A DNA stretch of 32,745 nt. Origin: an uncultured Erysipelotrichaceae bacterium. Lineage in GTDB: Bacteria > Bacillota_I > Bacilli_A > RF39 > UBA660. A model generated the notes under the pieces. The model was not told the DNA's origin. It ran no database searches and saw only the letters and a program-made list of their open reading frames with translations. Positions 30,578 to 32,636 of the stretch are shown one piece after another; within the stretch, counting starts at the first letter, position 1, and each line of letters begins with the position of its first letter. The stretch covers positions 1 to 32,745 of the forward strand of contig CACZFH010000018.1 of assembly GCA_902780395.1 (NCBI GenBank), written 5' to 3'. Both the position numbers and the translations under genes were made by a program.

Positions 30578-30680
30578 AACTATTTTTTTTATCCAATTAA
30601 TTCTATTAAAAAAAATATAATCACTAAGCGAAAAAGAAAGAATAACATTCAAAAAACTAAGAAAAATAAAAAAGTACAAT

Positions 30681-30709
30681 TTGCTATCTAATAAAAGACA
30701 TGATAAGAT
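30681..30709 (+). promoter_or_regulatory. Promoter of the thioester adhesin-sortase operon
   Basis: TTGCTA (30681-30686), a 17-base spacer and TAAGAT (30704-30709) preceded by TGA form a sigma-A promoter. The start point should be near 30716, about ten bases before the strong ribosome binding site at 30726-30733. Confidence 0.75.
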
Positions 30710-30738
30710 GAGCCTCATTAAGAAAAAGGAGGGATATT

Positions 30739-32154
30739 ATTAAAAATAAAATAATTTTCTTAATAACAATTATATGCTTACTATTACCATGTTTAAATGT
30801 AAAAGCAGAAAGTGCATCTTTTTATGAAGCAGAGTATATTGATGGAATTTATATGAGTAAATATAATTTTACTACTAGAATTACTTATTATCAGAAAGCT
30901 AGATTCTTTAGAAAAACTGGTACTGATGAATTTGCTTATTGTATTGAACCATTCCAATTCTTTGAAGAAAATGAATCATATCAATCTACTTCTAACCCAA
31001 ACTTAACTCAAGAAAAACTAGATAGAATATCTAAGATAGCTTATTATGGATATGGTTACAAAAACCACACAGATAAAAAATGGTATGCTATTACTCAATT
31101 AATGATATGGCAAGCATCTGATTCTGGAGGAAACTACTATTTTACTGATACGTTAAATGGTAGTCCTATCAATCGATTCCTAGAAGAAATAAATGAAATA
31201 AACAACCTAGTAAATACAGCTACTATAACTCCAAGTTTTAACAACCAAACTATTCACATAATAGAAGATGAAACTTTAAGACTAGAAGATAAAAATCAAG
31301 TCTTAAATCAATATATTGCATTGAATGAAAATCAAATAATTGAAGATAATTCTATTATCATCGAAAACCTAAAAGAAGGTACCTATACCTTCCAGTTATT
31401 AAAAGAATTTGATAATTACCACAAACCACTCATTTTTTATCAATCAAACAATAGTCAAAATCTAGTAAAAACTGGAGATATAAATAATATTACATCATCA
31501 TTTCAAGTAGAAGTAATTAAAACCAACTTACAAGTAACAAAAATAGATAAAGACACCAAATCAACCATACCATCAGGAGAAGGTACTTTAGATGGTGCTA
31601 TCTATGAACTATATGATGATAATAATAACAAAATATCAGAACTAGAAATAATAGAAAACCAAGCTATAGTAGAAAATTTACCATTTGGAAAATATTATTT
31701 AAAAGAAATAAAACCAGGTAATGGTTACTTATTAGATAATAGTATTTATGAAATAATCATAACAAAAGAAAATCCTAAAGTCGAAATCACTTTAGAAAAC
31801 GAAATAATAAAGAAAATAATTACTATCAATAAAAAATATGGAGAAGAAAACAATCTATATAATGAACAAAATATTACTTTTCAAATTCTTAATAACAATC
31901 AAGATGAAATAAAAGAAATAACAACCAATGAAGAAGGTATAGCAACAATAACCCTTCCTTATGGTAAATATACTATTATTCAAGATAATACTACACCTGG
32001 ATATCAAAAAGTAGAACCAATCTATATAGACGTAACAAATACCGAAAAAGAGATTATTGAATTAAAAGATTTAAAAATACCTGTTCCTAATACCCACACT
32101 GAACAAAATAATTATCTAGAATTATTACTATTAATCTTAATCATATTATTATGA
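30739..32154 (+). CDS. Thioester-domain (TQXA) / Cna-B surface adhesin with an AUU start codon
   Basis: The 471-residue protein begins with a signal peptide (IKNKIIFLITIICLLLPCLN, then VKA before the expected cleavage site). No ATG, GTG or TTG lies in frame before 30853, but AAGGAGGG (30726-30733) sits 5 bases before an ATT codon at 30739, so AUU initiation is the best reading. The thioester domain follows, with YCIEPF (Cys68) and AITQLMIWQ (Gln120) able to form the Cys-Gln bond used for covalent host attachment. Two Cna-B domains come next; the first has the isopeptide residues (VTKID, LKEIKPG, LEN). The end is a sorting signal, PVPNTH, plus a hydrophobic helix without a basic tail. It overlaps the sortase gene by four bases. 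Confidence 0.85.
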   Translation: MKNKIIFLITIICLLLPCLNVKAESASFYEAEYIDGIYMSKYNFTTRITYYQKARFFRKTGTDEFAYCIEPFQFFEENESYQSTSNPNLTQEKLDRISKIAYYGYGYKNHTDKKWYAITQLMIWQASDSGGNYYFTDTLNGSPINRFLEEINEINNLVNTATITPSFNNQTIHIIEDETLRLEDKNQVLNQYIALNENQIIEDNSIIIENLKEGTYTFQLLKEFDNYHKPLIFYQSNNSQNLVKTGDINNITSSFQVEVIKTNLQVTKIDKDTKSTIPSGEGTLDGAIYELYDDNNNKISELEIIENQAIVENLPFGKYYLKEIKPGNGYLLDNSIYEIIITKENPKVEITLENEIIKKIITINKKYGEENNLYNEQNITFQILNNNQDEIKEITTNEEGIATITLPYGKYTIIQDNTTPGYQKVEPIYIDVTNTEKEIIELKDLKIPVPNTHTEQNNYLELLLLILIILL

Positions 32155-32636
32155 AAAAAAGTTTATTCTTATTAATCATAGTAGTATTATTATTATCATT
32201 AAAAATAACTAATGATACAAAATATATAATAGAAAAAAAAGAAGAAATAGGATATATAATAATACCAAAAATTAATCTAAAAAGGCCATTATACCCTATC
32301 AACAGCAAAGAAAATACTATTGAGAAAAACATTACAATTCTAAAAGAATCTATTATGCCAGATGAAACCAATAGTATTCTAATTCTAGCAGCTCACTCAG
32401 GAACAGGCAAAATTGCTTTCTTTGAACAATTAGATCAATTATCGATTAATGATGAAATAATAATTAGCTACCATAACAAAAAATATACCTATCAAGTAAA
32501 AAATCTATGGGAAGAAAAGAAGAATGGTTATATTAATATCAATAAAGAATTAAAAAAACAACTAGTTTTAACAACCTGCAGTCCTAAAAAAGATAATACT
32601 CAACTCATAATTAATTGCACAATAAAAGAGTCTTAA
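32151..32636 (+). CDS. Sortase (class C/D-like), dedicated to the upstream adhesin
   Basis: The 161-residue protein has an N-terminal signal anchor (residues 4-18) and a compact sortase domain. LAAHSGTG carries the catalytic His82 and LVLTTCSPKKDNTQLIINC carries Cys143. In most sortases an Arg stands about nine residues after the Cys (T-C-x6-8-R-L-x-V); here the aligned position is Gln151. The short length and the TTCSP motif are nearest class C/D sortases. The substrate should be the thioester adhesin, whose sorting motif is PVPNTH and whose stop codon overlaps this ATG (ATGA). No separate ribosome binding site is visible, which fits translational coupling. Confidence 0.85.
   Translation: MKKSLFLLIIVVLLLSLKITNDTKYIIEKKEEIGYIIIPKINLKRPLYPINSKENTIEKNITILKESIMPDETNSILILAAHSGTGKIAFFEQLDQLSINDEIIISYHNKKYTYQVKNLWEEKKNGYININKELKKQLVLTTCSPKKDNTQLIINCTIKES

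Follow-up and report, generated by a model that had tools for sequence, protein, structure and literature searches.

An AUH start codon in the loop of a predicted 5′-terminal mRNA hairpin is conserved among adhesin genes of a gut-bacterial genus

The window, by which we mean the whole stretch of DNA analysed (32,745 nucleotides), carries a gene for a thioester-domain/SpaA-repeat surface adhesin (30739–32154; this and all other features lie on the plus strand) whose predicted start is an AUU codon at 30739–30741. We think it likely that this codon is a real, conserved near-cognate start that lies, together with its Shine-Dalgarno (SD) sequence, in the loop of a hairpin at the 5′ end of the mRNA; weak initiation and a response to initiation factor IF3 would be expected from precedents. 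A conserved AUH start (AUA, AUC or AUU) with a strong SD is of a known kind, and what is new is its occurrence in a surface adhesin gene together with a conserved 5′-terminal hairpin. Conserved non-AUG starts besides that of infC are few, and the literature examples found include no surface proteins; here AUH is present across most of a gut-bacterial genus, in a covarying 5′-terminal hairpin absent from Rfam.

The genome to which the window belongs measures 1.8 Mb in 73 contigs, one of which is the window; its genus is represented by 39 genomes and belongs to a large family. We take the related metagenome-assembled genomes to be RF39-type Bacilli, and many of their record labels mention goat, sheep, deer or yak gut. 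The adhesin frame contains no ATG, GTG or TTG between the upstream in-frame stop, a TGA ending 27 nt upstream of 30739, and position 30853, where the first in-frame ATG lies exactly 38 codons (114 nt) from the ATT. In this frame the codons read GCC TCA TTA AGA AAA AGG AGG GAT ATT ATT AAA AAT AAA and so on. The SD AAGGAGGG (30726–30733) is located five bases 5′ of the ATT, and its GGAGG is present in all members of the clade described below. Translation from the ATT yields a signal peptide of 23 codons (30739–30807; IKNKIIFLITIICLLLPCLNVKA, followed by ES), with a hydrophobic stretch that is conserved in orthologues. The original prediction of an AUU start had been built on the same elements, i.e., the lack of NUG codons over 38 codons, the SD five bases before the ATT and the signal peptide, all of which were confirmed. 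Gene finders restricted to NUG starts would set the adhesin start at 30853, and the signal peptide would be lost.

Start codons of orthologues were read in register with the SD and the signal peptide. A tree of 97 adhesins, from which the signal peptide was excluded, placed the window in a clade of 38 rows with a support of 100. At one fixed place after the SD, members of this clade carry ATA (19), ATC (8), ATT (5) or ATG (6); this is the comparison that the original prediction had proposed, and it supports initiation on AUU in the window. In the 38 orthologues that match the hairpin pattern described below, the counts are ATA 18, ATC 8, ATT 5 and ATG 7, the seventh ATG (L015) being outside the clade and one ATA (L113) inside it. 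The start codon is always found 6–8 nt after GGAGG and is AUH in 32/38 clade members and ATG in the other six, with AT as the first two bases in every row (38/38). Such conservation of an AUH start speaks for low-level translation, whether deliberate or tolerated, and against a broken gene.

Every row outside the clade carries ATG or TTG in the same register as the AUH codon; thus, the ancestral start was probably AUG or UUG, AUH being the derived state, and, judging by the tree, a subclade of five and L010 have probably retained ATG or returned to it. TTG is found in L082, L085, L087, L089, L101, L107, L125, L133, L143, L163, L165, L169 and L181. Since several relatives use TTG for the adhesin, it may be that on more than one occasion this leader has favoured or allowed a weak start. 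The natural series of AUA, AUC, AUU and AUG, with UUG in relatives, in one and the same leader offers a test of the parts played by SD, structure and IF3 in start-codon choice. We also observed that GGAGGG (30728–30733 in the window) accompanies weak starts (TTG or AUH) in 44/45 leaders and ATG in 5/47, the remaining ATG leaders (42/47) having GGAGG followed by A, C or T; in a phylogeny-corrected test, the association of weak starts with GGAGGG gave p values of 0.25–1, with too few independent tree pairs.

In E. coli and Bacilli, the AUU, AUC or AUA start of infC is autoregulated by IF3. In the genus studied here, GGAGGTG precedes an AUC codon in infC (AUA in two of the sequences read), and no suitable NUG was seen there apart from one ATG within the SD stretch and another internal to the gene. 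AUH initiation is thus in use by these cells. Upstream of the infC loci (L050–L079, the copy of the window's genome being L077) there is a terminator-like inverted repeat, AGCGGATATAAA...TTTATATCTGC, with a T run; such repeats are typical of attenuated infC-rpmI-rplT leaders. We have surveyed start codons by comparing about 0.83 Mb of the window's genome with about 0.80 Mb of a congener through reciprocal best hits, which gave 284 loci (including a few shadow frames), and 35 loci without an SD-preceded NUG were judged by eye. At the conserved N-terminus, only infC and the adhesin were without a NUG start. In the 21 genomes that yielded an initiator tRNA, the window's among them, it is of the standard kind with a CAU anticodon. 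A variant initiator tRNA with another anticodon was considered and rejected, as only CAU was found.

The parallel with infC drawn in the original prediction therefore holds in that infC starts at AUC or AUA here, and it was too narrow in treating infC as the sole known AUU case: further cases are reported for cvfC1, ccpN and citZ of Staphylococcus aureus (PMC13009471) and for rnhC of Listeria (PMC13068326). According to the former paper, cvfC1 (AUU) and ccpN (AUA) have conserved starts and long SDs and yield about 10% of AUG output (PMC13009471); according to the latter, Listeria infC starts with ATT and rnhC with ATC, and rsbW reporters rank ATG > ATA > ATT (PMC13068326). By analogy with infC, rnhC, ccpN and cvfC1, the adhesin AUH start is probably weak and IF3-sensitive. 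The likeness to infC extends to the strong SD and cross-species conservation; in contrast, infC encodes the factor that reads its codon, whereas the adhesin is a surface protein with its start in a 5′-terminal hairpin loop. The staphylococcal genes share with the adhesin a conserved AUH start in Firmicutes and long SD pairing, but ccpN is a metabolic repressor and cvfC1 encodes a small protein, and the portions of that paper at hand mention no enclosing hairpin and report no shuffling among A, C, T and G in the codon (PMC13009471). Listeria rnhC and the evolved rsbW variants (ATG to ATA or ATT, with a reduced rate) likewise present AUH in a Firmicute; the rsbW changes, however, arose under laboratory selection, and no 5′ hairpin is mentioned for the Listeria cases in the available text (PMC13068326).

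The third base of the adhesin start has undergone about 10 changes among A, C and T on the tree, and close sisters differ (L011 has ATT and L017 has ATA). Fixed AT with a variable third base matches the behaviour of IF3 in vitro, where the first two codon bases must form Watson–Crick pairs and the third may pair more weakly (PMC10158994). These facts are also compatible with a selectively neutral third base, with the SD, spacing and hairpin setting the site and frequency of initiation and AT-biased mutation turning AUG into AUA, AUU or AUC to no regulatory purpose. Base composition agrees with this: G occupies 2.8% of fourfold sites of the adhesin genes, and ATG at 6/38 starts is not rarer than G at these neutral third positions. 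AUG is therefore not required, avoidance of AUG is not demonstrated, and the idea of its active avoidance is unsupported. Against neutrality, AUU and AUA lose most expression in S. aureus and Listeria reporters (PMC13009471, PMC13068326), and every surveyed gene but infC and the adhesin has retained NUG. We regard the neutral explanation as a serious but less probable competitor of a weak, IF3-responsive start.

An inverted repeat that the original prediction had missed, ATTAAGAAAA (30717–30726) and TTTTCTTAAT (30755–30764), encloses the SD and the start codon. In the predicted mRNA hairpin, the 5′ arm is AUUAAGAAAA (30717–30726) and the 3′ arm, UUUUCUUAAU (30755–30764), falls within signal-peptide codons. 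The arms, RTTAAGAAA upstream and TTTCTTAAY downstream in DNA, form the two-arm pattern, which occurs exactly once per genome in 38/39 genomes of the genus, the exception being a genome that is 58% complete; a reversed-pattern control gave no matches in the 39 genomes. A 5′-terminal hairpin (RUUAAGAA...UUCUUAAY) with the SD and start in its loop is predicted in all 38 pattern-matched orthologues. The stem has roughly 9–10 bp, is rich in A-U pairs and, at about −4 to −8 kcal/mol, is of no more than moderate stability. The 3′ arm is read as NTT TTC TTA ATN, and TTC and TTA are used there in 38/38 genes vs. 29% and 56%, respectively, elsewhere in the same genes; the pattern itself required TTCTTAA, a condition that excluded none of the genomes with the adhesin leader.

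Since the MAFFT alignment of the leaders misplaces the A-run, pairing was tested by arm swapping. Inside the clade, the arms are too nearly invariant for swapping to be informative (217/2000 permutations). Across genera, 43 representatives clustered at 55% identity had a mean of −8.06 kcal/mol with their own arms vs. −6.33 with swapped arms (0/5000 permutations, kinship being partly uncorrected); with kinship likewise partly uncorrected, the values were −7.65 vs. −5.37 (0/5000) for the 27 representatives outside the clade and −6.05 vs. −3.95 (14/5000) for the 13 representatives without TTAAGAA. As a control, the own 5′ arm paired with a later window averaged −3.24 kcal/mol in the 43 representatives. 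The hairpin arms thus co-vary computationally in other genera. Compensated arms include GUCA/UGAC extensions (L093, L095, L177 and L187), AUAAAAA/UUUUUAU (L083) and ACAAAAC/GUUUUGU (L102); no clear stem was seen in some distant relatives (L098, L103, L105 and L106). Rfam covariance models matched the leader only at chance level (E 4.1, well below the gathering score). Control of the GGA-rich loop by CsrA was rejected, as a CsrA profile gave no matches over the cut-off in the 39 genus genomes and did give matches in control genomes.

The promoter expected just upstream is predicted from an extended −10 element, TGaTAAGAT (30701–30709), preceded at an 18-bp spacer by a −35-like TTTGCT (30680–30685), an arrangement shared by dozens of orthologues: TGnTANNNN is present in 63/75 orthologues with the core arm, and TTTGNN at the 18-bp spacer in 50/57 that were scored. 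A generic promoter scan did not list this −35/−10 pair of the window. The distance from the −10 end to the hairpin is 6–8 bp in 63/63 orthologues and 7 bp in 53 of them. The predicted transcription start is the A at 30717, as judged from this constant distance and from a C followed by A or G in 69/75 orthologues. Since this purine is the first base of the arm, the stem is expected at the very 5′ end of the mRNA, whose predicted 5′ UTR would be 21–27 nt and in the window about 22 nt. An upstream mini-ORF with an ATG at 30708 was rejected, as it overlaps the −10 box and its frame is not conserved.

We propose that translation of the adhesin would begin at AUU 30739 with fMet brought by the ordinary CAU initiator tRNA through a third-base mismatch, the strong SD setting the site of initiation. 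The mRNA would start at 30717, and its first bases would pair with signal-peptide codons, leaving the SD and start codon in the loop. Judging from the precedents, initiation would be weak, about a tenth of that at AUG, and high IF3 would lower it, so that adhesin levels would stay low and depend on the initiation machinery. The probable role of the hairpin is to adjust initiation or to shield the 5′ end of the mRNA. A bolder scheme, to which we give rather little credence, is that a 5′-terminal hairpin with the SD and start in its loop permits initiation at AUN, the third base being left to drift; it would then be a gene-specific device spread over many genera of the family, with AUG unneeded.

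The repeat could also be read as a DNA operator for a dimeric repressor that overlaps the promoter start. This is improbable: inverted repeats do fit DNA-binding dimers, and the repeat starts at the predicted +1, but the distance spanned by the two arms ranges between 42 and 51 bp and so does not keep helical phase; moreover, the downstream arm is part of the coding sequence, and there is a single site per genome. Translation from an upstream NUG, instead of the AUH codon, is very unlikely. In-frame NUGs do exist somewhere upstream in 16/32 AUH species (in some, an ATG at −33 to −42), but all of them are 5′ of the predicted mRNA start, many in or beside the −10 box, and their frame shifts with A-run length; in the remaining 16, among them the species of the window, an in-frame stop lies 18–30 nt upstream, with no NUG back to it. 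Thus, none of the 32 species has an in-frame NUG in the stretch from the predicted mRNA start to the AUH codon, and in 20/32, as in the window, the next NUG comes only after the signal peptide. A pseudogene or a one-base assembly error has nothing but the odd codon to recommend it and can be set aside, since the same state is seen in 32 species-level assemblies from separate projects, with the reading frame intact and the SD and hairpin conserved; the suggestions that an ATG-to-ATT mutation had silenced the gene in one strain, or that related strains would show ATG and expose a sequencing error, are refuted by AUH at the same codon in these genomes.

The adhesin, 471 amino acids long from the AUU, has a reading frame conserved in orthologues and matches Pfam TED PF08341 (E 1.6e-10, 41.8 bits vs. 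a cut-off of 22) and SpaA PF17802 (E 1.8e-21). C68 and Q120 are invariant in 36 sequences, as befits membership in the TED family. Known TED/TIE adhesins of Gram-positive bacteria similarly combine a TED with conserved Cys and Gln, a signal peptide, a SpaA-like repeat and their own sortase, and no non-NUG start was found for them in the literature at the level of titles and abstracts (PMC4450167, PMC8092201). The C-terminus carries a sorting-type motif, IPVPNTHT, and a membrane segment (32085–32154); the motif differs from LPXTG, 36 orthologues share its Pro and Thr without exception, and a sortase gene adjoins. This gene (32151–32636; Pfam Sortase PF04203, E 2.9e-17) has an ATG start that overlaps the adhesin stop by 4 bases; in most orthologues, too, an ATG overlaps the end of the adhesin gene. 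The overlap makes translational coupling of the two genes probable, and the sortase would in that case be kept low along with the adhesin.
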